This document shows, piece after piece, positions 10,649 through 35,200 of a DNA stretch of 64,000 bases. Made by a program: the position numbers and the translations under genes. The notes under the pieces were generated by a model. That model searched no databases, was not told the origin of the DNA, and saw nothing but the letters and a program-made list of their open reading frames with translations. Location of the stretch: assembly GCF_000331735.1 (NCBI RefSeq), contig NC_020126.1:6885501-6949500 (forward strand), in the 5' to 3' direction. Positions within the stretch are counted from its first letter, which is position 1. Each line of letters starts with the position of its first letter. The stretch comes from Myxococcus stipitatus DSM 14675. Lineage in GTDB: Bacteria; Myxococcota; Myxococcia; Myxococcales; Myxococcaceae.

Positions 10649-11284
10649 TCAGACCGGAGGCACGGCCAATTCCACCTTCTCCTCCGGCGCGGCGGAGACC
10701 AGCCCCGCCTTGATGAAGTGTTTGCGCAGGATGCGGCTGGCGAGCACGCCCCCCGCGAGTGCGCCCGTCACGGTGAAGACCAACACGAAGGCGCCCATCC
10801 AGGCATTGAACATCGCCGCGCCCTCCAGCCACCGGGCGCGCATGCTGGGCTCCATGGTCGCCGCGAAGCGCTCCGGGTTGATGACGACGACGGAGTAGTT
10901 GCCCACCGCCTCCAGCGTCTTGAAGACGATGTAGCCCGTGATGACCGCCGACAGGTTCCGGAATGACTGCACCCCGGCGATGAGGTCCGCCAGCACGCCC
11001 GCGAGCAGCACGGGCGGCACGGCCGAGTACATGCCCACCGACATCACCAGCAGGGAGTAGAGCGCCGCGGTGATGAAGAAGACCCCGCGCTTCTGCACGC
11101 GCGACACGAGGATGAGGTAGAGCGGCGCCATGATGAAGGCGCTCACCCCGCCATTGAACAGCCCCATCCCAGGCATCGGCTGAAGGATGGTCTGCATGAC
11201 GATGTAGACCACGATGATGAGCGCGTTGAAGACGCCGATCGTAATGAGATCGCGGGCTTTCAGGTGCTGCAGACCATAGGCCAT
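10649..11284 (-). CDS. ECF transporter substrate-specificity (S) component, MptD/Trep_Strep-like
   Basis: 211 residues with about five or six hydrophobic segments, starting LKARDLITIGVFNALIIVVY. The pattern is that of the large MptD-type S components of energy-coupling factor transporters. It would bind an unknown vitamin or metal in the inner membrane and work with the T and A subunits encoded at 14224-16451. The ATG at 11284 follows a G-rich ribosome site; a longer frame to 11431 lacks such a site and adds a non-membrane extension. The plus-strand vWA gene separates it from its partner genes. Substrate cannot be inferred from sequence. Confidence 0.82.
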   Translation of the reverse strand: MAYGLQHLKARDLITIGVFNALIIVVYIVMQTILQPMPGMGLFNGGVSAFIMAPLYLILVSRVQKRGVFFITAALYSLLVMSVGMYSAVPPVLLAGVLADLIAGVQSFRNLSAVITGYIVFKTLEAVGNYSVVVINPERFAATMEPSMRARWLEGAAMFNAWMGAFVLVFTVTGALAGGVLASRILRKHFIKAGLVSAAPEEKVELAVPPV

Positions 11285-11613
11285 GCCGGTACCCCCCCAC
11301 GTGCGAGGCTTTGAGAAAGACCACAGATGGGGGGTCCTTTCCTCTGGCTTTCGCGCCAAGCGTTGCCCCGCGAACATCGCCTGACGCACTCCGAGCAAAA
11401 TCCAACATTTCCAGAAAGTCGCGACATCCATGTTGCACTGCCAGGTCGCGCTCCGGCACCGTGGAGCCCCACGTGACGGGGTGTCTCCTGTCGCCCGTCA
11501 TGCCCAGACACCCGCAATGTTCAGGTCCGTTCGCTGCGCGGATGCACGCTTGCATCCCAAGGTCCGCTGCGAGCAATTGACCTCCCCGTCCGTTGAAATC
11601 GCAGAGGGAAACC
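11285..11613. promoter_or_regulatory. Divergent intergenic region between the ECF S gene and the vWA gene
   Basis: 329 bases with no credible gene; it should carry promoters for both flanking genes. The only structure I could define is an inverted repeat close to the S-gene start (11293-11299 with 11328-11334). I saw no near-consensus sigma-70 or sigma-54 promoter and no riboswitch I could name. Confidence 0.5.
11293..11334 (-). promoter_or_regulatory. Leader hairpin that would bury the ribosome site of the ECF S gene
   Basis: On the minus strand CCCCCCA pairs perfectly with TGGGGGG across a 28-base loop. The 3' arm is the G-run that serves as the Shine-Dalgarno sequence seven bases before the ATG at 11284. 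Formation of the stem would hide the ribosome site, as in a riboswitch or thermosensor platform. No ligand-binding aptamer was recognised upstream. Confidence 0.35.
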
Positions 11614-14214
11614 ATGTCCACGTCCGAGGCCACCAGTTACACGTTCCGGGTCGTCAACGCGGATGGGTCCGTGTTCGGCAAGGGCTGCTTCACCCACGAG
11701 GGTCCGCCCGCCCGAGGCGCCGTCACGATTCCCGCGGCCAGCGGCCCGAAGCTGACGGAGCTCTGGTACAGCGACCCGCTCGTGGGCACCCTGCGGCTCG
11801 CGGACGTGCGGGCTTTCGCCTTCGGCCCGGAGCAGTTCGCCCTCCAGCTCGCCAGCGGGGATCAGTCCGTGGAGCTCAAGGGCGGCAGCGCCACCACCGC
11901 GAAGCCCGGCCCCATCGCCAGTCACCGCCATGGCGGCAATGACTTCACCAGCCAGGGACGAAGCCTGGAGTTCCCCCAGCCCTCGGAGGCCCTCCCCGAG
12001 GCGACGCAGGGCGCCGCCACCGTGTCGGCGGTGGACCTGGTCGTGGTCATCGACGCCAGCAAGTCCATGCGCCCGGAGGCCGTCGGCCTGAGCGAGACGC
12101 TCAACGCCGCCATCGAGGTCGCCCGCACGCGCTGCCCCTGTGACTTGCGCGTCACCTACCTGGGCATCGAAGGCCTCTTCCAGGGCACGCGCTTCGACAC
12201 CACCGTGCGCGACTACCTGCGGGAGACCGCGGGCGCCAACGAGGCGGAGCTCAAGAGCCGCGCCTACACCTGGGTCGCCGGAGGCAAGGTCCGCGAGGAC
12301 GGAGGGCGGGCCATCGAGGACCTCTCCAACCACTTCGACTGGCGCCCCGAGGCCCAGCGCGCCGTCTTCTTCCTGGGCGACGAGGGCCTGGACGGAGGTG
12401 GCGACGTCAACGCGAGGGATGTCGTCGGCGCCAACAAGGCCATCCAGACCGCGCAGAAGGCCCGGGTGCGCGTCCACACCTACCTGGGGGTGACCGATGC
12501 CTCCCCCTGGGAGCTGGAGGCGCTGAAGCACGAATACGCCCGCGTCGCGGAGGAGACGGGCGGACAGTCCTTCCTGGTGCAGCAGACGCTGGAAGGCTTC
12601 CAGGACATGCTCACGAGCGTCATCTGCGGCAGCAAGTCCGCGCCCCAGGCCGGTGCGCCCGTGAGGAGCTGCTGCCAGGCCGCCGTGGAGAGCCCGACCG
12701 CGGCGGTGGCCGCGACCACCAGCTACACGTTCCGGGTGCTCGGCGCGGACGGTGCCTTGTTCGGCAAGGGCTGCTTCACCCACGAGGGCCCGCCGACCCC
12801 GAGCGCCGTCACCATCCCCCCCGCCACCGGCCCCAAGCTGACGGCGTTCTGGTACCACGACGCCATCGTCGGCAGCCTGCGGCTCGAGGACGTCCGCGCG
12901 CTCTCGTTCGCTCCGGAGCAGTTCTCCCTGGCGCTCGCCAACCCGGACAGCACGCTGGACCTGAAGGCGGCGGGCGCCTCACCCGCGAAGCCGGGCACCG
13001 TCACCCAGCACCGCGGCAAGGAGGGCGACTTCGCCAGCCAGAGCCGGGTGGTGGAGTTCCCGCGCTGGGCCGAGCCCACCGTCACCGTCACCGAAGGCCA
13101 GATGACGGTGCCCGCGGTGGACCTGGTCGTGGCCATCGACGCGAGCAAGTCCATGCGCGAGGAGGCCGTGGGGCTCAGTGAGATGGTGGGCTCCGCCATC
13201 AAGGCCGCCCAGACGCGCTGCCCGTCGAACCTGCGCGTCACCTACCTGGGCATCGAGGGCACCTTCGGAGGCACGCGCTTCGACACCACCGTGCGCGACT
13301 ACCTGCTGAAGTCCGTCGGCGCGGACGAGGCGGAGCTGAAGAGCCGCCGCTTCACCTGGATTGCCGGAGGCAAGGTCCGCGAGGACGGAGCGCGGACCAT
13401 CCAGGACCTCAGCGCCCACTTCGATTGGCGCACGGGCGCGCAGCGCGCCATCTTCTTCCTGGGCGACGAGGGGCTCAACGGCGGAGGGGAGCTTGCCGCC
13501 AAGGACATCGCCGCCGCCAACCACGCCATCGAGGCCGCCGTCTCCGCCGAGGTCCGCGTCCACACCTACCTGGGCGCGAGCAAGGTCAAGGGCCTGGAGG
13601 CGCTCGAGTCCGAGTACGCCCGCGTGGCGAGGGAGACAGGGGGCCAGGCCTACACGGTGCAGCGCTCGCTGAGCGGCCTCCAGAGCATGCTCGAGAGCGT
13701 CATCTGCGGCAGCAAGCCGCCCCCTGTCACCACCACCACGGAGTTCCGCTGCTGCCAGGCCTGCGTGGAGGACTTCGTCGCGCCCAAGCCCGCGCCGCCT
13801 CCCGCGCCGGAGCCCGCCAAGGTGGTGGTGGAGGACGGCAAGCTGCGCACGCTCGAGAAGGTCTACTTCGCCTCCGACAAGGACAACGCCATCCCGGAGT
13901 CCCTGCCGATTCTCGACCACGTCTTCGAACTGCTCCGCACGCACACCGACATCAAGAAGCTGCGCATCGAGGCCCACACCGACAACGCGGGCACCAAGAC
14001 GTACAACCAGGACCTGTCCGCGCGGCGGGCCAAGTGGGTGCGCCAGTATCTCATCCAGAAGGGCATCGCCGAGGAGCGGCTGGACTCCGCGGGCTTCGGG
14101 TTGACCAAGCCCATCGACAGCAACGCCACGCCGCAGGGCCGGGCCAACAACCGGCGCGTGGAGTTCGTCATCGTCGAGGAGCAGCCCCCACCGCCCGTCG
14201 CCCGGCCGATGTGA
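11614..14214 (+). CDS. Duplicated vWA-domain protein with C-terminal OmpA-like domain
   Basis: 866 residues from ATG 11614, which follows GAGGG. Two homologous halves each carry a novel N-terminal module starting TSYTFRV.. with FGKGCFTHEGPP, then a von Willebrand A domain with a MIDAS DASKS (Asp near 147 and 509) and a shared FFLGDEG strand. Each half ends in a CCQA cysteine pair. A Pro/Ala-rich linker leads to an OmpA/MotB-type peptidoglycan-binding domain (about 740-866) with IEAHTDNAG and NNRRVEF. There is no N-terminal signal peptide or membrane segment in the chosen frame, and the TTG seven codons upstream does not add one. The gene ends 9 bases from the convergent ECF T gene. OmpA-like domains normally bind cell wall, so export by a non-Sec route or a phage-tail-like role are both open. 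Confidence 0.85.
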   Translation: MSTSEATSYTFRVVNADGSVFGKGCFTHEGPPARGAVTIPAASGPKLTELWYSDPLVGTLRLADVRAFAFGPEQFALQLASGDQSVELKGGSATTAKPGPIASHRHGGNDFTSQGRSLEFPQPSEALPEATQGAATVSAVDLVVVIDASKSMRPEAVGLSETLNAAIEVARTRCPCDLRVTYLGIEGLFQGTRFDTTVRDYLRETAGANEAELKSRAYTWVAGGKVREDGGRAIEDLSNHFDWRPEAQRAVFFLGDEGLDGGGDVNARDVVGANKAIQTAQKARVRVHTYLGVTDASPWELEALKHEYARVAEETGGQSFLVQQTLEGFQDMLTSVICGSKSAPQAGAPVRSCCQAAVESPTAAVAATTSYTFRVLGADGALFGKGCFTHEGPPTPSAVTIPPATGPKLTAFWYHDAIVGSLRLEDVRALSFAPEQFSLALANPDSTLDLKAAGASPAKPGTVTQHRGKEGDFASQSRVVEFPRWAEPTVTVTEGQMTVPAVDLVVAIDASKSMREEAVGLSEMVGSAIKAAQTRCPSNLRVTYLGIEGTFGGTRFDTTVRDYLLKSVGADEAELKSRRFTWIAGGKVREDGARTIQDLSAHFDWRTGAQRAIFFLGDEGLNGGGELAAKDIAAANHAIEAAVSAEVRVHTYLGASKVKGLEALESEYARVARETGGQAYTVQRSLSGLQSMLESVICGSKPPPVTTTTEFRCCQACVEDFVAPKPAPPPAPEPAKVVVEDGKLRTLEKVYFASDKDNAIPESLPILDHVFELLRTHTDIKKLRIEAHTDNAGTKTYNQDLSARRAKWVRQYLIQKGIAEERLDSAGFGLTKPIDSNATPQGRANNRRVEFVIVEEQPPPPVARPM

Positions 14215-14223
14215 TGGACGGGC

Positions 14224-14949
14224 TCACATCGCGACGAGGTCGACGGCGAAGAGCAGCACGCCCACGAGCGCCGTCGCGATGAAGCCCACGGTGTCCGTCC
14301 GCGTCCAGACGAGCGGCTGGTACCAGCTCTTGTCGCCCTCGCGCTCCATGCCGCGCGTGAGGGCGGAGATGGAGAGCTCCTCGGAGATGCGCACCGCGCG
14401 CATCAACAGCGGGATGACGGTGAGCTCCAGCGTCTGCGCGGGGTACGCGTAGAAGCGCCGCAGCGTGGGCGCCACGCCGCGCAGCCGCATCGCATCCCGG
14501 ATGCTGGCGTACTCGTATTGCAGCGAGGGGACGAAGCGGATCGCCACCGCGAGCGGCAAGGTGACCTGCCGGGGGAACCGCAGCCGCTCCAGGGCCTGGA
14601 TGACCGCGGACAGGTCCTCCAGGCGCACCAGGTACAGCACCAGCAGCGCCGGGGACGAGAACTTCAGCACGGCGAACGCCAGGAACCGGAGGAAGAAGAC
14701 CCACATCGACGTGCCCGTGCCCCCGCCCCCGAAGACGACGTAGAGCACCAGCGGGACGGCCATCCACAGGAAGCGCGCCACCGTCTGCCGCTGTCCCGCG
14801 ACCAGGCCCAGCACGAGGACGACCTCCAGGAGGAGGATTTGGGCGGTGAGTGTCTTCGTGACGAAGGCACACAGGCTCACCAGGAAGAGCTGGAAGAGCT
14901 TCAGCCGCGCGTCCAGGCCCGCGTAGACGTTGGCCTCGCCCGCGCTCAT
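14224..14949 (-). CDS. ECF transporter transmembrane (T) component
   Basis: 241 residues with several membrane spans and the two short Arg-Gly signatures typical of EcfT coupling helices (DAMRLRG and ISALTRGM). The T component forms the membrane scaffold that couples ATP hydrolysis to the S protein. The ATG at 14949 overlaps the stop of the ATPase gene by four bases (ATGA), so the two are translationally coupled. A longer frame to 15081 overlaps the ATPase coding sequence and is a read-through of another frame. The third subunit, S, lies at 10649-11284. Confidence 0.9.
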   Translation of the reverse strand: MSAGEANVYAGLDARLKLFQLFLVSLCAFVTKTLTAQILLLEVVLVLGLVAGQRQTVARFLWMAVPLVLYVVFGGGGTGTSMWVFFLRFLAFAVLKFSSPALLVLYLVRLEDLSAVIQALERLRFPRQVTLPLAVAIRFVPSLQYEYASIRDAMRLRGVAPTLRRFYAYPAQTLELTVIPLLMRAVRISEELSISALTRGMEREGDKSWYQPLVWTRTDTVGFIATALVGVLLFAVDLVAM

Positions 14950-16451
14950 GCCCAGACCCAGGAAGGAGAGCGCGCCGAGGGGAGGTCCAGGTCCATGCGC
15001 AGGCGCCGCGCGGAGCCGACGTCCAGCAGGTAGTCGGCCGCGGTGCGTCCGCCCTCGAGCCGCAGGATGCGTGGACAGCACTGCGCGAGCAGCTCGTAGT
15101 CGTGCGAGATGACGAACACCACCTGCCCCTGGTCCGCCAGCAGGCGAACCTCCTCGCCCACGCGCTGGAGGTTCGTCGCGTCGAGGCCACTGGTGGGCTC
15201 ATCCAGGAAGAGGACATCCGCGCGGCGCATCGCGGCCACGGCGATCGTCAGGCGCTGCTTCTGCCCTCCGGAGAGGGACTGCGGGTGCCGCGCCGCCAGC
15301 CGCTCGATGTCGAAGCGCGCCAGGGTCTCCATGGCCCGCCGCCGCGTCGAGGCCGTGTCCGGCAACCCGAGCATCAGCTCGTCGAGGACAGACTCCGTGT
15401 AGAGCTGGTAGTCCGCGTCCTGGAGGACGAAGAACGAGCCGGCGCGCCGCTGCTTCGCGGAGACGACCTTGTAGGCATGGCGGATGCGGCCCGTGCGCTG
15501 CTCCAGGAGCCCCGTGGCCACGCGCGCGAAGGTCGTCTTGCCCGAGCCGTTCCGGCCGATGAGCCCCACCACCTCGCCGCGCGAGGCCTGAGCGGTGACG
15601 CCGCCCAGCACCACCCGCTCGCCGAAGGCCAATGAGACGTCATGGCTCTGGAAGTAGATGTCGTCCCGCCGCACCGGGGGCAGCGCGCCCAGCTTCGCGT
15701 GGCTGAGGTCCACCTGACGCAGCCCGCGAGCCTCCAGCGCCGACGGTGGCAGCGCGTGCAAGGCCTTGCGCTCGAAGACCTCCACGATTCGCCCCTGCCG
15801 CATGTGGATGAGCTTATCGAGGATGCCGGCCAGGTAATACAGGCGGTGCTCCGCGACGAGGACCACCGCCCCGTCCTTTCGCAGCATGTCGATGATGAGC
15901 CCCAGGTGGCGCGTCGCCTGCGGGTCCAGGTTCGCCGAGGGCTCGTCGAGCACATAGACGCTGGGGCGCATCGCATACGCCGACGCGAGCGCCACCTTCT
16001 GCCGCTCTCCCGTCGACAGCTCGAACACGCTCCGGCCTCGCAGGTTGTGGATTCCCAGCCGCTCGAAGGCCTCGTCCACCCGCTCCTTCATCACGTCGGT
16101 GGGGACACCGAAGTGCTCCGAGGCGAAGGCCACTTCCGACGTCGCGGACGTGGTGAAGAACTGCGAGCGAGGGTCCTGGAAGACGCTCCCCACCTGCTGG
16201 CCAATCTGCCCGATGGACCACCCGCCCACGTCCTGCCCATTGATGCGGACCGTGCCCTGGAGCTTCCCCTCGAAGAACCGGGGCACCAGGCCATTGACGA
16301 CCCGCGTGAGGGTCGTCTTCCCACAACCACTCGCTCCCACCACCACCGCCAGCTCACCCGGCTCCAGGGTCAGCGAAACGTCATCCAGGCCATCGCCGTC
16401 GCCATGCTGGTAGCGGAACGAGACTCCCTCTATCTGGACGACGGGCGCCAT
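14946..16451 (-). CDS. ECF transporter ATPase, two fused ABC domains
   Basis: 501 residues holding two complete ABC nucleotide-binding domains in one chain. The first has Walker A GASGCGKTT (39-47), signature LSTGERQK and Walker B YVLDEP. The second has GRNGSGKTT, signature LSGGQKQR and LFLDEP. Fused EcfA1/EcfA2 proteins are a known variant. It would energise uptake through the T subunit encoded immediately downstream with a 4-base overlap. The ATG at 16451 was preferred over an upstream GTG-type extension because the ABC fold begins within a few residues. It is the first gene of the A-T pair, and its promoter should lie in 16452-16803. Confidence 0.93.
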   Translation of the reverse strand: MAPVVQIEGVSFRYQHGDGDGLDDVSLTLEPGELAVVVGASGCGKTTLTRVVNGLVPRFFEGKLQGTVRINGQDVGGWSIGQIGQQVGSVFQDPRSQFFTTSATSEVAFASEHFGVPTDVMKERVDEAFERLGIHNLRGRSVFELSTGERQKVALASAYAMRPSVYVLDEPSANLDPQATRHLGLIIDMLRKDGAVVLVAEHRLYYLAGILDKLIHMRQGRIVEVFERKALHALPPSALEARGLRQVDLSHAKLGALPPVRRDDIYFQSHDVSLAFGERVVLGGVTAQASRGEVVGLIGRNGSGKTTFARVATGLLEQRTGRIRHAYKVVSAKQRRAGSFFVLQDADYQLYTESVLDELMLGLPDTASTRRRAMETLARFDIERLAARHPQSLSGGQKQRLTIAVAAMRRADVLFLDEPTSGLDATNLQRVGEEVRLLADQGQVVFVISHDYELLAQCCPRILRLEGGRTAADYLLDVGSARRLRMDLDLPSARSPSWVWA

Positions 16452-16803
16452 GCGTTGTGTAGCTGAACGTACCCACACGCGGAGCGAACATCAAGGAAGC
16501 CACACTTACATGGACGGACGCGGTCTCCGTGCCCATGAACTCGGCGCGGGTGTCATGTCGGCTGCGAATTCCTGTGCACCCTCATCGAATTCTCAGACTC
16601 GGAATGAATCGCAGTTTTCATTGTCCTGAAAGAGCCGCACGCCCGGGACCGAGGGACGAACGACATTCCCTGTCCATGGGTTCATCCTCGCCTTCAAGTC
16701 AACAACAAGCATCTTCACGGCGCCACGAAATGTATTCCATTGGTTCCTTCCCATTCGACAGTGATGGTGAAGGCCGTCACGGGAAGCGGAGGCTGAACCC
16801 AGC
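16452..16803. promoter_or_regulatory. Divergent intergenic region before the pyrrole cassette
   Basis: 352 bases between the ECF ATPase gene and the acyl-CoA dehydrogenase gene. It is visibly less GC-rich than the flanking genes, especially 16560-16760, as expected of a promoter region. A GGAGG ribosome site lies 11 bases before the dehydrogenase ATG. No convincing -35/-10 pair, operator or RNA motif could be pinned down, and the short open frames in it look non-coding. Confidence 0.5.
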
Positions 16804-17949
16804 ATGGATTTCGCGTGGACCCCCGACGAGCGTCGGATGAGGACGGCGGCGGTCGCTTTCGCACGGGAGCGGCTCGCCTTCGACCTGGTCTCCCTGGATG
16901 CGCGGGGCGACTTCAATCAAGAAGGCTGGCAGCGGCTCGCGAGCTTCGGCGCCGCGGGCTTCCCCATTCCCCGCCGGTACGGAGGCAGCGAGCTGTCGCT
17001 CTCCGTCACCGCGCACGCGCTGGAGGGCCTGGGCTACGCCTGCGCCGACAACGGGCTGCTCTTCGCCCTGGGCGCGCACCTGTGGGCCTGCACCCTGCCC
17101 ATCCTGCTGTTCGGCAACGAGGCGCAGCGGGAGCGGTACCTGCCAGCGCTCGCGCGCGGAAAGCGCCTGGGCGGCCATGCGATGACGGAGCCCGAGGCGG
17201 GCTCGGATGTCGCCGCGCTCCAGACGACCGCCACGCGCAAGGGCGACACCTACGTCCTCCAGGGGCGCAAGGCCTTCGTCACCAACGGCCCCGTGGCGGA
17301 CGTGCTGATTGTCTTCGCCACGGTGGACCCCTCACGAGGCCGCGAAGGGCTCACCGCCTTCATCGTCGAGAAGGGGCTGCCAGGGCTGCACATCGAGCCC
17401 ACCGGCCCCCGGATGGGGATGCGGACGGCGAGCCTGGGCGAGCTGCGGTTCGAGTCGTGCGAGCTGCCCGTCTCGAGCCGCCTGGGCGAGGAAGGCGCCG
17501 GCCTGACGCTGTTCTCGCAGATGATGGAGTACGAGCGTGGCCTCGTCCTCGCGCCCGCGCTGGGGGCGATGGAGCGGACCATGGAGCGCTGCATCCGGCG
17601 CGCCCGGGAGCGCCAGCAGTTCGGCAAGTCGATTGGCGGCTTCCAGGCCATCTCCACCAAGCTCGTGGAGATGAAGCTGCGCCTCGAGACGGCGCGCGGG
17701 CTCGTGTACCGCTTCGCCTGGCTCAAGCAGCAGGGACGCTCGGCGATGTTCGAGGCCTCGCTCGTCAAGCTCCACGTCAGCGAGTCCTGGGTGCAGACGA
17801 GCATGGACGCGGTGCAGCTCCACGGCGGGCTCGGCTACCTCACCGAGACGGAGCTGGAGCGTGAGGTGCGTGACGCATTGGGAAGCCGGATCTTCTCCGG
17901 AACCTCGGAGCTCCAACGCGAGCTCGTGGCCCGCTCCATGGGCCTGTGA
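16804..17949 (+). CDS. Acyl-CoA dehydrogenase-family oxidase, likely prolyl-PCP dehydrogenase
   Basis: 381-residue flavoprotein with the acyl-CoA dehydrogenase signatures (GHAMTEPEAGSD near 123-134; C-terminal HGGLGYLTE). In pyrrole biosynthesis such enzymes (PltE/RedW type) oxidise prolyl-S-PCP to pyrrolyl-2-carboxyl-S-PCP. Support comes from context: the next two genes encode a proline-coded adenylation enzyme and a PCP. The usual C-terminal catalytic Glu of the EGT motif is Ser here (FSGTSE, S365). A Glu in MMEYERG (E242 or E244) sits where isovaleryl-CoA dehydrogenase-type enzymes place their base, so the protein can still be active. The next gene starts 15 bases after the stop. Confidence 0.88.
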   Translation: MDFAWTPDERRMRTAAVAFARERLAFDLVSLDARGDFNQEGWQRLASFGAAGFPIPRRYGGSELSLSVTAHALEGLGYACADNGLLFALGAHLWACTLPILLFGNEAQRERYLPALARGKRLGGHAMTEPEAGSDVAALQTTATRKGDTYVLQGRKAFVTNGPVADVLIVFATVDPSRGREGLTAFIVEKGLPGLHIEPTGPRMGMRTASLGELRFESCELPVSSRLGEEGAGLTLFSQMMEYERGLVLAPALGAMERTMERCIRRARERQQFGKSIGGFQAISTKLVEMKLRLETARGLVYRFAWLKQQGRSAMFEASLVKLHVSESWVQTSMDAVQLHGGLGYLTETELEREVRDALGSRIFSGTSELQRELVARSMGL

Positions 17950-17964
17950 TGGAGAAACACATCC

Positions 17965-19539
17965 ATGCTGTTTCAGTATCTCTCTGAAAGCGCCCGGTCC
18001 ACCCCTCGCCAGACGGCCGTCATCGACGGGACGCGGCTGTGCTCCTACGAGGAGCTGGACCGAGCCTCCAACCAGGTCGCGCGGACGCTGCGGGAGCTGG
18101 GGATTGGCCATGGCTCGCGCGTCGGGCTGCACCTGGACAAGTCGCTCGAGGCGGTGGTGGGCCTGTTCGGCATCCTCAAGGCCGGCGCGGCCTACGTCCC
18201 CATCGACCCGTCCTCGCCCGAGTGGCGGGTGAAGTTCATCGTCCGGGACTGCCGGCTCGCGGGGGTCCTCACCACGCGCGCCTGGTTCGACTCGCTCCGG
18301 GAAGTGGAGACGTTGGGGTGTCTGCTCCTGGTGGACGGGAGCGCGACGAACCTGCCGCTCCCGGCCGCCTCGCGCCCCGTCGTCCCCGTCACGCTGACGT
18401 GGGAGGACGTGCGCGCGAAGTCCACCGAGCCCGTGCCCCCCGCGCCCGAGGCCACGCCCGAGGACCTGGCCTACGTCCTCTACACGTCCGGCTCCACGGG
18501 CCAGCCCAAGGGCGTCATGCACAGCCACCGCGCGGCGCACGCCTTCGTCGAGTGGGCCTTCAACCTGGCCGAGGTCCAGCCCGGGGACCACGTCAGCAGT
18601 CACGCCCCGTTCCACTTCGACCTGTCTGTCTTCGACGTGTTCGCGGCCGCGAAGGGCGCCGCGGCGCTGGTGCTGGTCCCCACGTCGCTGTCTGTCTTTC
18701 CCCGGGAGCTGGCGGACTTCATCGCGACGCGAGAGATTGCCATCTGGTATTCGGTGCCGTCGGTCCTGACGCAGCTGGTGACGCGGGGCGAGCTGTCGCG
18801 GCACCGGTTCCCCCGGCTGCGCACCGTGCTCTTCGCCGGAGAGGTCTTCCCCATCAAGTACCTGCGCGAGTTCGCCGCCACCATCCCCGGGCCCCGCTAC
18901 TTCAACCTCTACGGCCCCACCGAGACGAACGTCTGCACGTTCCATCGCGTCACCCTCGCGGACCTGTCCCGCTCCGCGCCGCTGCCCATCGGACAGGTGT
19001 GCTGCGGCGACCAGGCCTTCATCGTCCGCGACGACGGCGTGCTGGCGGCGGACGGAGAGGAGGGGGAGCTGTGCGTCGCGGGCCCCACTCTGATGAGCGG
19101 GTACTGGGGACAGGCGGCGCTCACGTGTCAGGGACTGGGTCCCATCCCAGGACATCCCCTGGCCTATCGCACCGGAGACCGCGTCGTGCGCGAGCGGGGG
19201 GTGATGCGCTTCCTGGGCCGCGGGGACGAGCAGGTCAAGGTGCGGGGACACCGCGTCGAGCTGAGCGCCATCGAAGAGGTGCTCCTGCGCCACCCCGATG
19301 TCGAGGAGAGCGCCGCGCTGACGCTGCCGGACGAGCTCGCCGGCAACGAGCTGCGCGCCTTCGTGGTGCTGCGAGACAACGCGAGCGTGAGCCCTCAGGA
19401 CCTGCGGCGGCACTGCGGGGAGTACCTGCCTCGCTTCATGATTCCAGCGCGCATCGACACCTGCGAATCCCTGCCGAGGACCACCACTGGCAAGCGGGAC
19501 AAGGTCCGACTCCAGGAGCAGGCGCGGCAGCTCGTGTGA
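17965..19539 (+). CDS. Stand-alone adenylation enzyme, L-proline--PCP ligase type
   Basis: 524 residues forming one NRPS adenylation domain with core motifs YTSGSTGQPKGV (A3), NLYGPTETN (A5), YRTGDR (A7) and the A10 lysine in TTGKRDK. Reading the binding pocket against GrsA gives D-L-F-Y-L-A-L-V-C-K, which I recognise as the proline code of PltF/RedM-type enzymes. It should activate L-proline as the AMP ester and load the PCP encoded next. It lacks condensation and carrier domains, as expected of the discrete pyrrole-forming trio. It is followed after 40 bases by the PCP gene. Confidence 0.9.
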   Translation: MLFQYLSESARSTPRQTAVIDGTRLCSYEELDRASNQVARTLRELGIGHGSRVGLHLDKSLEAVVGLFGILKAGAAYVPIDPSSPEWRVKFIVRDCRLAGVLTTRAWFDSLREVETLGCLLLVDGSATNLPLPAASRPVVPVTLTWEDVRAKSTEPVPPAPEATPEDLAYVLYTSGSTGQPKGVMHSHRAAHAFVEWAFNLAEVQPGDHVSSHAPFHFDLSVFDVFAAAKGAAALVLVPTSLSVFPRELADFIATREIAIWYSVPSVLTQLVTRGELSRHRFPRLRTVLFAGEVFPIKYLREFAATIPGPRYFNLYGPTETNVCTFHRVTLADLSRSAPLPIGQVCCGDQAFIVRDDGVLAADGEEGELCVAGPTLMSGYWGQAALTCQGLGPIPGHPLAYRTGDRVVRERGVMRFLGRGDEQVKVRGHRVELSAIEEVLLRHPDVEESAALTLPDELAGNELRAFVVLRDNASVSPQDLRRHCGEYLPRFMIPARIDTCESLPRTTTGKRDKVRLQEQARQLV

Positions 19540-19579
19540 GCCATTCCCCCGAGGTATCCATCCGCCGGAGTCCACGTCC

Positions 19580-19879
19580 GTGAAAGAACCCGTGACGAGC
19601 TACACCGAGGAGCAGGTCGGCCAAATCATCCGCGCGCACATCGAGAAGGAGTTCCTCTATCGGAGCAAGGGCCCGGAGCTGGGTGAGGACAACAGCCTCA
19701 TCACCCGCGGAATCATCGACTCGATGGGCATCTTCCGGTTGGTGAACTTCCTCGAGCAGCGGTTCGAGATTTCCGTCACCCCCTCCGACATCGCGATGGA
19801 GAACTTCCGCAGCCTGCGCGCCATCCGGACCTTCACCTGCTCCCGACTGAGCTGTACCGGCCAACGGGAGTCCGCCTGA
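19580..19879 (+). CDS. Discrete peptidyl carrier protein for the prolyl/pyrrolyl unit
   Basis: 99 residues with one phosphopantetheine attachment site in GIIDSMGI (S48) and the four-helix carrier outline. It should carry L-proline from the adenylation enzyme while the dehydrogenase oxidises the ring. GTG 19580 is preferred because GGAG lies 10 bases upstream; a second GTG at 19592 is possible. The stop TGA shares its last A with the ATG of the condensation gene (TGATG), so the two are translationally coupled. Confidence 0.9.
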   Translation: MKEPVTSYTEEQVGQIIRAHIEKEFLYRSKGPELGEDNSLITRGIIDSMGIFRLVNFLEQRFEISVTPSDIAMENFRSLRAIRTFTCSRLSCTGQRESA

Positions 19880-21705
19880 TGCATCCGGACATCTGGAGAG
19901 CCTTCCAGCGCCTGCGCACGCTGCGCTCGGCGGCCCCGCCGCTGGTGACGCACCCGCGCGCCGAGACCTCCCCTGTGTCCTTCCAGCAGGAACGCCTGTG
20001 GTACCTGGACCAGGCCAACCCAGGGGGCTCGGCGTACCACCTCCCCGTGGCCTTCCGCCTGTCGGGCCCGCTGGACTGGCGCGCCCTTCGCCTGACGCTG
20101 GAGGCCCTGGAGCACCGGCACGAAGCCCTGCGCACGTCCTTCAGCTCCAGCCGGGGTGAGGTGGTCCAGTACGTCCGCGCCCCCGGGGCCTTCGTGTTCC
20201 CCACCGTCAGCCTTCGCGACGAGGTGTCCACGCTCGAGGAGCGGGAGATCGCGATGCGGGAGGCCCTCCTGCAAGAAGCCTGGCGCGCGTTCGACCTGCA
20301 GCGGGACATGCTGTTCCGCGCGGTGCTGTTCGTGCTGGACGCGCAGGAGCACGTGCTCATGCTCTGCGTCCACCGCATCATCTGCGACGACGAGTCCCTG
20401 GACGTGCTCTTCCGGGACCTCTCGGAGCTCTACGCCGCGTTCCAGCAGGGCCTCGACTCCCCTCTTCCCACGCGCGAGGTCCACTGCTCGGACCACGCAC
20501 GCTGGCAGCGGGCCTGGATGCGAGGCCCTTGCCGCGAGGAGCTGCGAGCGTACTGGCGGGAGCAGCTGAAGGAGCGACTGCGGGGGCCTCGGCTCACCTC
20601 GCGTCCGAGGCGGGGGAACACCTCCTCGGCCCGGACGCGCAAGCTGGAGCGCTTATCCCTGCGCTTCCCGCCGGAGCTCTCCCGCGCGGTCCTCCAGTTC
20701 TCCCGCGAGGCAGGCGCCACGGTGCACATGGTGTTGCTCGCCGCGTTCCACCTGCTGCTCCACCGGTACTCCGGCGGACAGGAGCAGCACTTCGTGTGCA
20801 GCCCCATCGCCAACCGGCCGCAAGCGGAGACCGAGCACCTGGTGGGCTACTTCGTCAACCTGCTGGTGCTCCCCGCGGACCTGAGGAAGGACCCCAGCTT
20901 CCAGCAACTCCTCGAGCAGGTGCGCGAGGTCGTCGTCGGTGCCCTGCCCCATCAGGACCTGCCCGTTCAGCTCCTGGAGGGACTCGACCTGGGCGGAGAG
21001 CCGCTGTCCCAAGTCCTCTTCGCCTTCGAGAACACGCCTCGCCATCCGTTCCAGCTCGCGAACCTGCGCATCACGCCCCTGGAGCTCGAGGGAGGAACGT
21101 GCGACTTCGACCTCTTCCTCGCGCTGCATGAAGAAGACGGCGTCATCTCCGGGACGCTCGAGTACTCCCGCGAGGGCTTCGCGCACGAGGAGGCGTCGCG
21201 GCTGCTCGTCGACTTCGAGACGGTGCTGAGACAAGCCCTGAGGACCCCCGAGAAGGTGGCCTCGACCTTCCTCCCGGAGCAAGGCCGACGCGGCCCCTCG
21301 AGCACGACGGCCGCGGCGCAAGCGCTCTCGCGCGCCACCCGGCGGGCGCCCCTTCCGCCGCCCGTGGATGTGCTCGAGGCGCTGGGCGCGGCGACACCCG
21401 AGCAGCGCCGCTGCCTGATGACGGACTACCTGCGAGACACCATCACCCAGGTGGTGCTCCGGGGCCAGGAGCCAGACGTTCCCATCCAGTCCCTCCAGGA
21501 GCTCGCGCTCGACTCGCTCCGGCTCATCGAGCTCACCGGGCGCATCCGCACCGAGCTGTCCGTCGACATGCCCGTCTCCCGCTTCTTCGACGCGATGAAT
21601 GTCGAAGTGCTGGCGGACGAATTGATTGCACGGTGGCTGCGCGCGCGGATGCCCGAGCCCCGAATCCCTCCCCTCCACCGCCGTCGAGAGCACCTCACGC
21701 CTTAG
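19879..21705 (+). CDS. Condensation-like domain with altered HHxxxDG motif, fused to a PCP
   Basis: 608 residues. Residues 30-470 follow a NRPS condensation domain (SPVSFQQERLWYLDQ, RHEALRTSF, VGYFVNLLVLP, HQDLPVQLLE). The active-site motif HHxxxDG reads HRIICDD (165-171): the catalytic second His is Arg166 and the final Gly is Asp171, and the DNA reading CAC CGC is unambiguous. A C-terminal PCP (about 510-585) has its serine in LALDSLRL (S546). The domain may be non-catalytic, may use another residue, or may act as a docking platform that receives the pyrrolyl group from the upstream PCP. The start overlaps the stop of the PCP gene by one base. Confidence 0.88.
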   Translation: MHPDIWRAFQRLRTLRSAAPPLVTHPRAETSPVSFQQERLWYLDQANPGGSAYHLPVAFRLSGPLDWRALRLTLEALEHRHEALRTSFSSSRGEVVQYVRAPGAFVFPTVSLRDEVSTLEEREIAMREALLQEAWRAFDLQRDMLFRAVLFVLDAQEHVLMLCVHRIICDDESLDVLFRDLSELYAAFQQGLDSPLPTREVHCSDHARWQRAWMRGPCREELRAYWREQLKERLRGPRLTSRPRRGNTSSARTRKLERLSLRFPPELSRAVLQFSREAGATVHMVLLAAFHLLLHRYSGGQEQHFVCSPIANRPQAETEHLVGYFVNLLVLPADLRKDPSFQQLLEQVREVVVGALPHQDLPVQLLEGLDLGGEPLSQVLFAFENTPRHPFQLANLRITPLELEGGTCDFDLFLALHEEDGVISGTLEYSREGFAHEEASRLLVDFETVLRQALRTPEKVASTFLPEQGRRGPSSTTAAAQALSRATRRAPLPPPVDVLEALGAATPEQRRCLMTDYLRDTITQVVLRGQEPDVPIQSLQELALDSLRLIELTGRIRTELSVDMPVSRFFDAMNVEVLADELIARWLRARMPEPRIPPLHRRREHLTP

Positions 21706-21734
21706 CCACACGATGTCGCAACGGGGTTGCGAAC

Positions 21735-22913
21735 ATGAGCTATCAAGCCGAGGCCTGGGTCATCCACGCGGGCAGCTCTCGTGAACCGCGCCGCGCCCAG
21801 TTGACGCGAACCCGCATCACCGTCGAAGCCATCCAGGACGGCGAGGTCCTCGCCGCACCCCTCTTCGGCTGCTGGGAGGCCAACACCGAACACGCGCTCG
21901 AGCGGCGTCCGTTGGATGTCTGCAAGGCCCGCCAGGAGCAGGAGGTGGTCCTGGGCAACGCGGGGGTCGTCCGCGTGCTGGAGACCGGCAGGAACGTCAC
22001 CGAGGTCCGCTCCGGGCAGCTCGCGATGTTGTTCTCGAGCGGGGAGACGGACGGCCTCGGCTTCATGACGAAGGCCCTGGGCTACGATGCGCCCCGCCAG
22101 ATGGGGTGCATGGCCACGCTGATGAAGCTCAAGGGCCGGCAGCTCATCCCCCTCCCCGAGAACTCGCGTTTCTCCCCCGCCCAGTGGGCCGCCTTCAGCG
22201 TCCGCTACGTCACCGCCTGGGCGAACTGGCGAGTGGCCCAGGGGGCCTTCCGGCTCCAGGTCTCCGAGGCCGACTGTCCGTCCCCGCATGTCTGGGGTTG
22301 GGGCGGGGGCACGACGCTCGCGGAGCTCACGCTGGCCCAGTTCCATGGCTGTCGCGCGGTGATGCTGTCGGGGACGCCCTGGCACCTGGAGGAGATTCGC
22401 TCCGCGGGGCTGGAGGCCATCGACCGGAGGGATTTCGGGGCCATGCGCTATGAGCCCGAGCGGTGGAGCAAGGACGCGGGCTATCGCGAGCGCTACCTCA
22501 CCGCGGAGGCCGAGTTCGTCGCGGAGGTCTCCCGTCGGACGGGTGGAGAGATGGTGCACGTGTTTCTCGAGTACCTCGGCACCCCTGTCTATCGCGCCAG
22601 CCTCAAGGCCCTGGCCCGGCAGGGAGTGCTCGCCACCGCCGGGTGGAAGGCGGGCATGTCCGTCTCCCTCCTGCGCGCCCGGGAGTGCGTCGCCCGGCAT
22701 CAGCACATCCACACCCACTTCGCGCGCTATCAGGAGGGTGTGGACGCGGTGGCCTTCGGGGAGACCCACGGCTGGATGCCCGACGTGGGGCCTCGCATCC
22801 ACGCCTTCGAGGAGCTGCCCGCGCTCGCCGAGGCGTACCACACGGGGGACGCCAACTACTTCCCGTGCTTCAGCATCAACCAGGAGGCGAAGCGGCCACC
22901 GCCAGGGCGGTGA
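21735..22913 (+). CDS. CCR-like medium-chain dehydrogenase/reductase
   Basis: 392 residues from ATG 21735; the longer frame overlaps the preceding gene. It has a Rossmann nucleotide site (GWGGGTTLAELTL) and, in its second half, segments that follow crotonyl-CoA carboxylase/reductase: LEAIDRRDF, HIHTHFARYQEG (compare the GSHFANYxEA loop with its CO2-site His), and a C-terminal HAFEELPALAEAYHTGD. No catalytic zinc ligands are evident. It would reduce an enoyl thioester, possibly with carboxylation, but what such a substrate would be in a cassette without a PKS is unclear. It lies 29 bases after the condensation gene and appears to be the last gene of the operon. Confidence 0.78.
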   Translation: MSYQAEAWVIHAGSSREPRRAQLTRTRITVEAIQDGEVLAAPLFGCWEANTEHALERRPLDVCKARQEQEVVLGNAGVVRVLETGRNVTEVRSGQLAMLFSSGETDGLGFMTKALGYDAPRQMGCMATLMKLKGRQLIPLPENSRFSPAQWAAFSVRYVTAWANWRVAQGAFRLQVSEADCPSPHVWGWGGGTTLAELTLAQFHGCRAVMLSGTPWHLEEIRSAGLEAIDRRDFGAMRYEPERWSKDAGYRERYLTAEAEFVAEVSRRTGGEMVHVFLEYLGTPVYRASLKALARQGVLATAGWKAGMSVSLLRARECVARHQHIHTHFARYQEGVDAVAFGETHGWMPDVGPRIHAFEELPALAEAYHTGDANYFPCFSINQEAKRPPPGR

Positions 22914-22914
22914 A

Positions 22915-22939
22915 GGGGCCCGTGGGCCGGCGGGGCCCC
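22915..22939 (+). terminator. GC-rich inverted repeat after the pyrrole cassette
   Basis: GGGGCCC (22915-22921) can pair with GGGCCCC (22933-22939) across an 11-base loop, two bases after the stop of the reductase gene. There is no T-run behind it, so it is at best a weak or Rho-assisted terminator. Nothing else stands out up to the ffh start at 23128. Confidence 0.35.
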
Positions 22940-23127
22940 ACCGCTGGCCAGGAGGGCGACCGGGCCATTGGGATGCCCCAACCCCTCGGGAGCGTTGGTG
23001 AAATCAGGACCTTGGCCCCCTTCCACCCCGTGCGGGAGGGGGGTGGAGGCCCGGCTCTTCAGTCTTCGACGGCCCGGATGCGCTCCACCGTCGCATCCCA
23101 CCTCCCCCCTGTTATAAAGCGCCCCCC

Positions 23128-24777
23128 ATGCTTGAGACCGTCACCAAGGGCTTCCGCGCCGCCAAGAACCGCCTCGCCGGCAAGAGCGAGCTCACTCCAG
23201 AGTTGGTGGACGAGTCGCTCCGCGACATCCGCGTCTCGCTCCTCGAGGCCGACGTGGCCTTCGACGTGGTGAAGAAGTTCGTCGCCCGCGTGCGCGAGAA
23301 GTCCGTGGGCGAGCTCGTCCAGACCACCCTCACCGATGCCTCGGGCCAGAAGCGCAAGGTCAGCCCGATGGACCACTTCATCAAGATCTGCCACGACGAG
23401 CTCGAGGCACTGATGGGGCCGGTCGACACGAGCCTGAACCTGAAGCCCAAGGGGCAGCTCAGCGGCATCATGATGGTGGGTCTGCAGGGCTCTGGTAAGA
23501 CGACCACCACGGGCAAGCTCGCCAGTCGGCTGCTCCAGCAGGGGCGCAAGCCGCTGCTCGTCGCCGCGGACATCTACCGCCCGGCCGCCGTGGACCAGCT
23601 CAAGGTATTGGGCGAGCGGCTCAAGGTGCCCGTCTACCACGAGCCCGGCGTGCAGCCGCCCGAACTCGCCAAGCGGGGCTACGCCGCCGCGCGCGAGCAG
23701 AAGTGCGACGTGGTGCTCATCGACACCGCCGGCCGACTCGCCATCGACGAAGCGCTGATGTCGGAGCTGGAGTCCATCAAGTCGAACGTGCACCCGGACA
23801 ACATCCTGCTGGTGTGCGACGCGATGATTGGCCAGGACGCGGTGCGCACGGCCGCGGAGTTCGACCGGCGCCTGACGCTGGACGGCTTCATCCTGACGAA
23901 GCTGGACGGTGACGCCCGTGGCGGCGCGGCGCTGTCCATCAAGGAAGTCACCGGCAAGCCCATCAAGTTCCTCGGCATGGGCGAGTCGATGGACAAGCTG
24001 GAGGAGTTCCGTCCGGAGGGCCTCGCGGGCCGGATTCTCGGGTTCGGCGACATCGTCGGCCTGATGAAGGACTTCGAGAAGGTCGTCGACGAGAAGAAGG
24101 CCGAGGAGGACGCGCGCAAGCTGTTGTCCGGCCAGTTCTCGATGAAGGACTTCGTCGAGCAGATCCGCATGGTGCGCAAGATGGGTCCGCTGAAGGACCT
24201 GCTGGAGAAGTTCCCGCTCTTCGGGGACCTCACCGAGCACCTCAACCCGGACGAGAAGGAGCTCACGAAGATTGAGTCGATGTACGACTCGATGACGCCG
24301 AAGGAGCGCCTGCGCCCGGACCTCATCAACGCCAGCCGGATTGGCCGCATCGCCAAGGGCAGTGGTCGCAAGCCGGAGGACGTGCGCGAGCTGCTCCAGA
24401 AGTTCGGGATGATGCAGCAGGTGATGGGGACCATCGGCCAGAACCCGGGCCTGCTGGGCCGCATCCCGGGCTTCAAGCAGCTGGGTCAGCTCTCGCAGAT
24501 GCGGAACATGGACCTCTCCAGCATGTTCGGTGGGGACCCGAAGATGATGGAGAAGATGATGAGCGGCGGCATGCCGGGCATGGGGATGCCCATGCAGCTG
24601 CCCCAGGTGGCGCCTGGCTACACGGCCCCCATGGGCCAGGCGGCCATGGCGAAGGCTCGCCTCATGGGCTACGCGCCCCCCTCCTCCGCTGGCGGAAAGC
24701 CCGAGGACCGCGACGCCATCAAGGAGCGCCGCAAGCGGGAGAAGGACAACAAGAAGAAGAACCGGAAGAAGAAGTAG
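23128..24777 (+). CDS. ffh: Signal recognition particle protein Ffh
   Basis: 549 residues, a little longer than the usual ~450-500. The N domain is followed by the SRP GTPase G domain with P-loop GLQGSGKTTTTGK (about 113-125), DTAGR, and TKLDGDARGG. The C-terminal methionine-rich M domain binds 4.5S RNA and signal peptides. The end has an unusual Met/Gly/Pro-rich stretch and a very basic Lys/Arg tail (KEDNKKKNRKKK-like). It targets nascent membrane proteins to the inner membrane with FtsY. The gene stands alone, with a terminator-like hairpin 27 bases after the stop. Confidence 0.97.
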   Translation: MLETVTKGFRAAKNRLAGKSELTPELVDESLRDIRVSLLEADVAFDVVKKFVARVREKSVGELVQTTLTDASGQKRKVSPMDHFIKICHDELEALMGPVDTSLNLKPKGQLSGIMMVGLQGSGKTTTTGKLASRLLQQGRKPLLVAADIYRPAAVDQLKVLGERLKVPVYHEPGVQPPELAKRGYAAAREQKCDVVLIDTAGRLAIDEALMSELESIKSNVHPDNILLVCDAMIGQDAVRTAAEFDRRLTLDGFILTKLDGDARGGAALSIKEVTGKPIKFLGMGESMDKLEEFRPEGLAGRILGFGDIVGLMKDFEKVVDEKKAEEDARKLLSGQFSMKDFVEQIRMVRKMGPLKDLLEKFPLFGDLTEHLNPDEKELTKIESMYDSMTPKERLRPDLINASRIGRIAKGSGRKPEDVRELLQKFGMMQQVMGTIGQNPGLLGRIPGFKQLGQLSQMRNMDLSSMFGGDPKMMEKMMSGGMPGMGMPMQLPQVAPGYTAPMGQAAMAKARLMGYAPPSSAGGKPEDRDAIKERRKREKDNKKKNRKKK

Positions 24778-32227: not shown

Positions 32228-35200
32228 CTATCGGCGCACCTGCACCTCCACGTGTGTGCCGACGGCCACACGCAGACGGTGATGCTCTTCGGACGTCGCG
32301 AACACGAGCAACTCCTTGAGTTTGGTGCGAGGCGGCACACGGAACGAAGCCCCCGTCTCCCCCTGCACCAGACGCCGCACCGGCTCCATCTCCCCCGCCA
32401 CGAAGAGGCCCGCGCGGGCCGCCGTCAGTTCCGCGCCCTCCAGGAACTGGCGCACGGACTGCGGCGTCGCGGTGGGCAGCCACGCCCGGGCCGCCTTGCT
32501 GAGTGCCGCGCGGTCCATGTCGGTGAGGACCTTCTCCAGCGCGCGCCGCTCGGGCTCGACGCCGTGGAGGGACTCGGCGATGCGCACATTGCCCACCACG
32601 AGGTTCAGCGCCGCCTGGAGGATGGCCTCCAGTCGCTCCGCGGGCACGAACTGCGTGAAGGCCAGCTCCGGCCGAGCCAGCGCCAGCGCCCGTCCCAGCA
32701 GGTAGTACACTTCCTTCTGCCCCTGCTCCGCGAAGTACTTCCCACCCACACGAACCGAGGCGGGGTGCGTCTGAAGCAGCTCGACGTTGACCTGCGGCTC
32801 CGGGGCGGGCTCGTTGGAGCGCTTCGCCATGCGCTCGCGCGTGGCGACGAGGAAGGGTGAGTACAGCTCCACCGCCTCCATGCCCAGCAGGCGCGCCACG
32901 TACCGGTAGTGGTGCACGTGGTACTCCTGCGCGCTGGCCACGTCGATGCGGTGCTTGCGAGGCACGAGCTGGTACTGCGTGAAGGGCGCGGCATACAGGT
33001 GCCCCGCCTTCGCGAAGAGCAGCCCCAGCAGCTCCGCCAAGGGGCCACGCGCCTTCGGGTGGAACAGGTGCGAGAGCCAGAGCTGGTCGTCGACCGGACG
33101 CTGCGCCACTTCTTTCTTCTTCGCGTGGGGCCCCAGCTTGACGAGGATCTCCTTCTCGTCCTCGCCCTCTTCCCCCAAGAGGCCCGACGTCGCCTGGGCC
33201 GCGAGCCACGCCAGGTCGTAGTCCTTGCGCATCGCCGCCAGTCGGACGAGCTGTCCGCACACCTTGCGCGGGGACTCGGTGTGAGGCAGCGCGCGACGGA
33301 GCGCGGCGATGGCCTCCTCCTCCTTGCCCGGCATGTTGCCAGCGAGCTCGGCGAAGGCCTCCTGCACACCGGCATCATCGGGCAGGCCCTTGGCGGCCAC
33401 GCCGTAGGCCGCCACCGCGCCCTCCGGGTGCTTGAGCACCTGGTGATAGAGGTCACCCAGCGCGCGCCACAGCGCCATGCGGGCCACGTGGGTCTCCGGC
33501 GTCTTGGGCAGCCGGCCCAGCATCTTCGTGTAGTTCTCCTCCAGTGACTTCCACTGGCGAGCCCCACCCAGCATCGCCTCCAGGGAGCTGAACGCCTCGA
33601 CGAAGCGCGGGTCCAGGTCCAGCGCGGCATTGAACGCCTGGGCGGCGCCGTCCACGTCCTTCAGGTCATCGCGGCGCAGCTCGCCCAAGGCGAACCAGAC
33701 GCGCTTGGCCTTGTGAGGCTCGGACGACAGCGTCGGCAGCGCCAGCATGCGCGCGAGCACGTCCGCGGCCTTCTGGCCCTGCCGCGTCTCGCGCAGGAGC
33801 ACGTAGAGCTGGTCCATCACCTCGAGCGCATCCGGCAGGACCTTCAGCGCCCCCGTGAAGGCATCGATGGCCATGTACGGGTCGTGCAGCTGGTCTCGGG
33901 AGATGCGCCCCAGGTCCAGATACACCTTCGCCTTGGCCTCGCCTTCGAGCACGCCCACGAGTTGCTGGCGCAGGTCCGCGGACTTCTCGTACTGGCCCGC
34001 CTTGTCCATCAGGATGACGAGCGCCCGCAGCGTGGGCTCGTGGCCCGGGTCGATGGCCAGCGCCTTCTCGAAGTGATTCTGCGCGCGGTCCGTCTGGTTG
34101 AGCGCGGCGTGGATGTCACCGAGCTGCCAGTAGACCTCCACCACCTCCAGGTCCGTGAGCTCCTCGCGGTGGTGGATGAGGATGGTCTGGAAGACCTTGA
34201 GCGCGCCCTCGTAGCGGCGCGTCTGCACCAGCAGGTTGCCGTAGCCCTCCAGCGCGGGCAGGTACGTCGCGTCGCGCTCGTAGGCCGTCTCGTAGCAGCT
34301 GAGCGCCTTGTCGCGCTTCCCCAGCTTCTCCGCCACGTAGCCCAGGCGGTAGAGCTGACGGCACAAGTCCGCGGCGACGGCGGCGTCCTTCTCCACCATC
34401 GCCTTCTCCGCCAGCTTGCGCGTGACGATGTCCAGCATCCGCTCGGCGTCGGCCCACTCCTCGTGGGCGATGTAGACATCCGCCAGCGCCCTCGCGGCCT
34501 CCAGGCTGTCCGGGATGTGCTTGAGCGCCTCCTCCCAGTAGCCCGTCGCCGTCTCGCGGTCCTCGCGGGTCTCCGCGTGGTAGCGCGCGACATCCAGCAG
34601 GGCGCGTCCCTTGGCGGCGGGGTCTTCCGTCTGCTCCGCCTCCTGGCGCAGCGTCTGCTCGTAGCCGCTCCAGTCCTTCTCCTGCTCCTGGATGCCCTTC
34701 AGGGCGCGGATGCTGGGCAGGTGGCCCACATCGATGGCGATGGCCTGCTGATAGGCGTTCCGGGCGCTGCCCGTGTCCATCAGCATGTCCTCGTTGATCT
34801 TCCCGAGCCGGAAGTAGAGCTCCACCGCGTCCTTCGACTGGCCGGCGAGCTCCGCCTCCTTCTGCAACATCTCCAGCGCGAAGGGCCAGTTGCCGCTGCG
34901 CTCGTAGAGTTTGCCGAGCGCGTGCAGCGCGGGACGGCTCTCCGCGTCCACCGCGAGCGCCGCGTGGTAGCTGTTGACGGCGCGGTCCACCGCCTTGAGC
35001 TGCTGGTACTGGACGTTGCCGATGTCCACGTACAGCTCCGCCTGCTCCTGCGGGCTGACGGCCAGCGCGAGCTGACGCTCATAGGCGATGAGGAGGTCCT
35101 CCCACCGCGACTGAGCCCGGCGCAGGCGGATGAGCGCCTTGATGGCTTGGACGTTCTGCGGGTCGATGGAGAGCACGCCCTCCACGCACACGTCCGCGTT

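Follow-up and report, generated by a model that had tools for sequence, protein, structure and literature searches.

Results

The window, the whole 64,000-nucleotide stretch of Myxococcus stipitatus DSM 14675 DNA that was analysed, carries a cassette of five plus-strand genes followed downstream by ffh (23128-24777). The first gene encodes a prolyl-carrier-protein dehydrogenase-like protein (DH; 16804..17949), whose best solved relative is 4irn, a 'Prolyl-ACP dehydrogenase' that aligns with aa 2-381 at 480 bits, and which scores below the cut-offs of two NCBIfam models, PigA (396 bits, cut-off 500) and ProlPCPDhRedW (377 bits, cut-off 650). The second encodes an L-prolyl-AMP ligase-like protein (A; 17965..19539); its pocket segment is best matched by 6o6e, an L-proline--[L-prolyl-carrier protein] ligase (129 bits), and next by 7thn, of the same name (82 bits), and its pocket residues read DLFYLALVC when placed by the GrsA numbering. 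The third is a stand-alone carrier protein (PCP1; 19580..19879), with a PF00550 score of 20.9 bits for a cut-off of 20.8 and eight PDB matches, the best being 2my5 'Peptidyl carrier protein' (40 bits), with PltL at 25 and PigG at 24 bits. These three genes, whose joint presence is established by similarity only, resemble trios of the PltE/PltF/PltL type, with matching solved relatives; unlike such trios, they are followed by a gene for a condensation-carrier didomain protein of 608 aa (C-PCP; 19879..21705) and by an MDR-family reductase-like gene (MDR; 21735..22913). The start of the MDR gene, placed by homology, lies 29 bases past the C-PCP stop. The product scores exactly at the PF00107 cut-off (31.8 bits), and its five PDB matches, all of them crotonyl-CoA reductases, are weak (E 1e-6 to 1e-5). 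A paralogue of 47% identity is present elsewhere in the same genome (G000:C1:1964077-1965240), near hexapeptide-transferase-like, SDR and AMP-ligase genes.

A scan of positions 16450-23200 for sigma-70 promoters found none. Upstream of the cassette, on the minus strand (10649-16478), are genes for a Trep_Strep-type membrane protein, a CbiQ-like protein and a double ABC ATPase, which are ECF-type transporter-like; in one related genome, G071, the stretch searched holds only a CbiQ-like fragment of this set (L039:13315-13662). Farther along the window, the minus strand carries a 4091-aa open reading frame with high GC3 (32228-44503).

The C-PCP protein consists of a condensation (C) domain (PF00668, aa 29-463; 266 bits against a Pfam cut-off of 30.6, covering profile positions 3-443 of 456) and a second carrier domain (PCP2; PF00550, aa 518-581; 21430..21621) in which the string LALDSL is identical in 9/9 orthologues. 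An earlier note on this DNA had described a C domain with an HRxxxDD motif, fused to a carrier domain and coupled to a pyrrole trio, and these points are borne out. The HHxxxDG active site is absent and the motif stretch reads VHRIICDDES; the codons for H165-R166-I-I-C-D170-D171-E172-S173 occupy 20371..20397, with CGC for R166 (20374-20376) and GAC for D171 (20389-20391), all within an open frame. The gene lies directly 3' of the acyl-CoA-dehydrogenase-like, AMP-ligase and PCP genes. As the same motif is found in three other genomes, a sequencing or assembly error is ruled out, and a length of 608-609 aa across the genomes with this motif rules out a frameshifted pseudogene. A structure model of C-PCP built from 7 sequences has a mean pLDDT of 60.3, too low for the model to be of use.

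We searched 96 genomes of the family, defining an orthologue as a full-length match of at least 60% identity, and found C-PCP orthologues in nine, M. stipitatus included; other matches among those listed did not exceed 44%. Four orthologues have HRxxxDD, namely the M. stipitatus protein and those of G072 (94% identical to it), G061 (91%) and G071 (80%), hereafter the HR clade. Another four, from G062 (M. llanfairpwllgwyngyll...), G065 (M. qinghaiensis), G014 and G015, have HHxxxDG, and that of M. eversor (G056) has HHxxxDD together with W172A. The orthologue comparison proposed in the earlier note therefore gives a split result, with three of the eight other orthologues sharing HRxxxDD, four having the canonical motif and one having HHxxxDD. 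In a tree built on concatenated sequences of the five cassette proteins, the four HR genomes stand apart from the rest (support 100) and M. eversor is the sister of M. qinghaiensis (support 100). The latter pairing is also found, with support of 100, in an ffh tree of six genomes only, in which support within the HR genomes is weak (48-59). Taken together, the sequences indicate that the HR substitution is derived, shared, of an inactivating type and located in a conserved protein.

For comparison, the C domain was aligned with 51 myxobacterial C domains, comprising 21 matches to C-PCP from relatives and the best 30 of 114 matches from the M. stipitatus genome; a position was called conserved when it was the same in at least 90%. 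Every one of the 51 shows HH at the motif, followed by D-G in 48 and D-A in 3, and then, again without exception, Trp, where C-PCP has Glu172. Against these references, which as best-scoring domains are biased to canonical ones, the HRxxxDD deviation is more than chance. The further statement in the earlier note, that other C-domain motifs are intact, did not hold: at 24 of the 128 conserved positions the HR and the HHxxxDG orthologues, four of each and without exception, depart from the consensus (e.g., Y203C, R332P, F363V and E364Q), and all nine orthologues have gaps at two well-conserved columns beyond position 364. Even before the HR/DD change, the C-PCP family was unusual. A further six conserved positions are kept in all HH proteins and lost in all HR proteins, three in the motif (166, 171 and 172) and three elsewhere (137, 199 and 322). 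Fixed differences between the HR and the HHxxxDG proteins, four of each, number 18 in the C domain, and five of them (166, 169, 171, 172 and 174) lie within a span of 10 residues at the motif (scan P=0.0025 for a null in which changes fall uniformly over positions). His165 and Asp170 are retained in all 7 aligned relatives.

The gene content at the site differs between genomes with different motifs. In 4/4 HHxxxDG genomes, a radical-SAM gene lies just 5' of the dehydrogenase gene and a TubC-Cy-A-PCP orthologue just 3' of the MDR gene. Pfam domains found in the G065 and G014 clusters include B12-binding and radical SAM domains and, in the NRPS gene, TubC_N docking, Condensation, A, PCP and KS domains. 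The Condensation domain of this NRPS gene reads DCTFVDSWS, and we take it to be of the heterocyclisation type because of its DxxxxD motif, which is the motif given for such domains in PMC11546977. In G065 three more large PKS-like genes come next, two of them recognised by Pfam and one by similarity only; a stand-alone C domain and a gene for a Rieske protein lie beyond these, and then ffh. No match to the radical-SAM protein reaches E<=1e-30 in M. stipitatus, G072, G061, G071 or G056, and the best match to the NRPS segment in these five genomes is at most 52% identical, against 78-100% in the four HHxxxDG genomes; a relocated NRPS part is thus ruled out.

At the same chromosomal site, directly upstream of ffh, M. 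qinghaiensis has the full cluster, the HR clade (M. stipitatus, G072, G061 and G071) has five genes, and M. eversor has A and C-PCP only. This same-site evidence comes from one full-cluster genome, G065; G014 shows no ffh match within the 73.7 kb fetched, and the stretches from G062 and G015, of 19-20 kb, end short of the far end of the cluster. In DNA comparisons with G065, about 30 kb between MDR and ffh is absent from M. stipitatus, and M. eversor is without three segments of ~2.8 kb, 0.23 kb and 31 kb, the adjoining parts being 92-95% identical. The three deletions in M. eversor leave the A and C-PCP open reading frames behind the apparent old upstream region (L003:6949-10852). As the deletion endpoints differ, truncation would most simply have happened twice, once in the HR clade and once in M. 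eversor. Both truncated lineages have Gly171 changed to Asp and have lost Trp172, so that the motif change appears to accompany loss of the assembly line on two occasions.

Within the HR clade, pairwise dN/dS is 0.14-0.22 for the C domain, 0.13-0.19 for A and 0.10-0.16 for DH. We also fitted a self-written branch codon model (F3x4 codon frequencies, fixed tree, four HR genomes), in which omega averages over sites and p values are uncorrected for multiple tests. The C-domain omega, 0.059 in the background, rises to 0.225 on the HR stem (p=0.0086) and 0.196 on the M. eversor branch (p=0.00017) and is 0.078 in the HR crown (p=0.13). The A gene has 0.150 on the stem (p=0.0083) and 0.066 in the crown (p=0.81), and DH shows no change. 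PCP2 is faster on the stem (0.688, p=0.0012) and looser in the crown (0.072 against a background of 0.027, p=0.028), and PCP1, in a separate fit, is likewise looser in the crown (0.146 against 0.047, p=0.044 from a two-class comparison only). The MDR gene, after a stem value of 0.156 (p=0.039), is tighter in the crown than in the background (0.042 against 0.068, p=0.028). Since the HR-crown omega of the C domain is not significantly different from background, C-PCP in the HR clade appears to be a maintained protein under purifying selection and no evident pseudogene. In each of the four HR genomes, the five reading frames run uninterrupted over their full length. The A3 loop of the ligase is ordinary in M. 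stipitatus, G072 and G061; in G071 (L039) it reads YTSETTEQPKG, with two glycines replaced by Glu in an open frame, and M. eversor has QPTG in place of QPKG. These loop changes look like decay, and function may have been lost in some members.

Replacement of HH...DG by HR...D(D/E) beside a carrier domain is shared with the glycopeptide X-domains, such as those of Tcp12 (4tx2) and kistamicin. PMC11546977 gives the X-domain motif as HRxxxDD, with HRxxxDG printed in one legend; PMC6565677 states that HRxxxDE in the kistamicin X-domain inactivates it and blocks its channel; and the review PMC8949500 describes X-domains as inactive as C domains and as platforms for P450s. When the 78-residue motif segment was compared with 28 PDB sequences, the Tcp12 X-domain 4tx2 ranked first (VHRI..DD.S.DV.FRDL; 52.9 bits, the next at 44.7). 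Over the whole domain, the nearest match of C-PCP is no X-domain, with scores of 229 bits for Txo1, 214 for Txo2 and 126 for 4tx2. The canonical elongation domains Txo1, Txo2 and TycC are among its best whole-domain matches, and from these it differs in the altered catalytic His, Gly and Trp as well as at the 24 conserved positions changed in HR and HH orthologues alike. The order of domains is C-PCP here, in contrast to PCP-X in the glycopeptide systems. None of 11 P450 matches in the M. stipitatus genome lies inside the window, so P450 recruitment in the glycopeptide style is ruled out; horizontal gain of an X-domain is also ruled out, since C-PCP, over its whole length, and the neighbouring genes have their orthologues in the HHxxxDG clusters. 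Because the nearest non-HR orthologues carry HHxxxDG, the HR motif arose independently of the glycopeptide X-domains; C-PCP may work like an X-domain but is no member of that group.

When 195 genomes of the phylum were searched with a 64-residue segment, the 30 loci listed were 22 with HHxxxDG, four with HRxxxDD (all of the C-PCP family) and one each with HHxxxDD (M. eversor), HRxxxDE, HHxxxDR and HPxxxDV. The HRxxxDE locus (HRLIADEAS) is the first C domain, near G038:C1:5034075, of a separate, large NRPS in G038 (G038:C1:5024000-5043900), a second non-glycopeptide case of Arg with an acidic residue. Every H-to-R case considered, i.e., the HR clade, the G038 NRPS and the two X-domains, has an acidic residue in place of Gly, and this pairing suggests an Arg-acid contact in the emptied active site.

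Discussion

Our preferred reading, which we hold at a probability of about 0.52, is that condensation has been lost and that the C domain is kept as a non-catalytic platform for a carrier or partner proteins in a shortened pathway. The possibilities that the earlier note had raised, that the domain may be inactive or may only position carriers, fit best, by analogy with the X-domain motif and from the signs of purifying selection. In the pathway that we infer, the prolyl-AMP ligase would load proline onto PCP1 and the dehydrogenase would convert it to pyrrolyl-PCP1; in full clusters, an HHxxxDG C-PCP and the MDR protein would then hand over to the TubC-docked Cy-A-PCP-KS line. The ancestor of the four HR Myxococcus genomes would have lost the radical-SAM gene and the NRPS/PKS part, most simply by in-place deletion. 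In the same lineage, the C domain would have changed to HRxxxDD(E) and, if the X-domain analogy holds, condensation would have ended, with the Arg/acid pair closing the channel. C-PCP would subsequently have been kept by purifying selection in the remaining five-gene pathway, where its non-catalytic body would most likely hold PCP2 and/or bring DH, A and MDR to the carrier-bound substrate. Loss of the downstream assembly line best explains the derived HR substitution and is the likely trigger of the switch. Points against the platform reading are the three conserved positions lost outside the motif, the single genome with a full cluster at the site, the faster C domain of M. eversor, the looser carriers of the HR crown and the activity of some C domains whose motif is not HH.

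A serious rival to the platform reading, if on balance an unlikely one, is that the cassette is a relic in slow decay, in which condensation became useless once the NRPS/PKS part had gone, drift then altered the active site, and the other cassette genes are going the same way. Loss of the motif in both truncated lineages, the raised omega in M. eversor and on the stem of the HR clade, and the A3-loop changes in G071 and G056 would all be expected from such decay, and the carriers in the HR crown are partly loose, as plain decay would predict. Some members may have lost function, and a substantial part of the probability stays with this reading. Set against it are the five full-length frames in all four HR genomes, the clustering of changes at the motif and the M. 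eversor deletions, which leave A and C-PCP as whole open reading frames. A change of role would be expected to give rapid change on the stem and restored constraint after it, and plain decay a loose crown; in the HR crown, C, A and DH are not significantly off background and MDR is tighter.

Catalysis may instead be altered, with the pyrrolyl group still transferred, to PCP2 or to a small acceptor, with the help of Arg166, Asp171, Glu172 or other residues. Not every C domain depends on its second His, and streptothricin ORF18, which like C-PCP is a C-PCP protein with an altered motif from a cluster with stand-alone A domains, has HQxxxDM and is nevertheless active, condensing beta-lysine units with streptothrisamine (PMC11546977). 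His165 and Asp170, moreover, are kept in all the aligned relatives. The same kind of double change inactivates X-domains and blocks their channel, according to PMC6565677, and none of the other cassette genes is an obvious source of an acceptor; continued transfer is improbable in our view. Least credible, and very improbable, is that the cassette feeds a pyrrolyl thioester in trans to another line, with C-PCP as an adaptor. M. stipitatus does possess a DKxanthene-like, TubC_N-docked Cy-A-PCP-KS cluster at 7.76-7.80 Mb, 52% identical over the NRPS segment, and HH and HR proteins resemble each other in the C-PCP tail. That cluster, however, comes with DH-like (50%) and A-like (42%) genes of its own, C-PCP orthologues occur in only 9/96 family genomes, and the best match to the NRPS segment in G072 is just 43% identical.

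The well-described case of a C domain that passed from a catalytic to a non-catalytic role is the glycopeptide X-domain. That C-PCP is a second, independently evolved platform of this kind is a speculative proposal that we consider rather doubtful. On this view, in the five genes left of a pyrrole polyketide cluster, an H-to-R and G-to-acid switch would have turned a former condensation enzyme into a domain that docks the dehydrogenase or reductase onto substrate bound to a carrier, and a new, small pyrrole compound would be made with no condensation step. If it is true, the switch could be traced through the HHxxxDG orthologues that still exist and through M. eversor, with HHxxxDD as a parallel half-step. 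Active-motif, changed and, in a parallel lineage, half-changed forms at one chromosomal site make the switch and its likely trigger directly testable. Counting every PF00668 domain as a condensation step may mislead here. A fungal C subtype with SHXXXDXX is mentioned in PMC10212144, in the passages of which 'HRxxx' and 'X domain' were not found.

The full HH clusters resemble DKxanthene-like clusters in having prolyl-type DH and A genes, a TubC_N-Cy-A-PCP-KS gene and, in G065, PKS genes, and their homologues in the M. stipitatus genome are 47-52% identical. They differ by having C-PCP, MDR and B12 radical-SAM genes in addition, with the Rieske gene as well in G065. The name 'DKxanthene-like' for the full cluster is inferred from homology with the M. 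stipitatus cluster and from PMC13218925, in which a DKxanthene cluster is reported for M. stipitatus and all Myxococcus species are said to have one, a statement against which the low G072 match stands. DKxanthene, pyrrole and a condensation domain were found together nowhere in the literature covered, which was itself partial. At the end of the G065 cluster (G065:C3, L048:2950-5510), the Rieske protein is accompanied by the stand-alone C domain, which is TubC-docked, has an intact MHHTVVDGAS motif and might act in release by condensation with a free amine.
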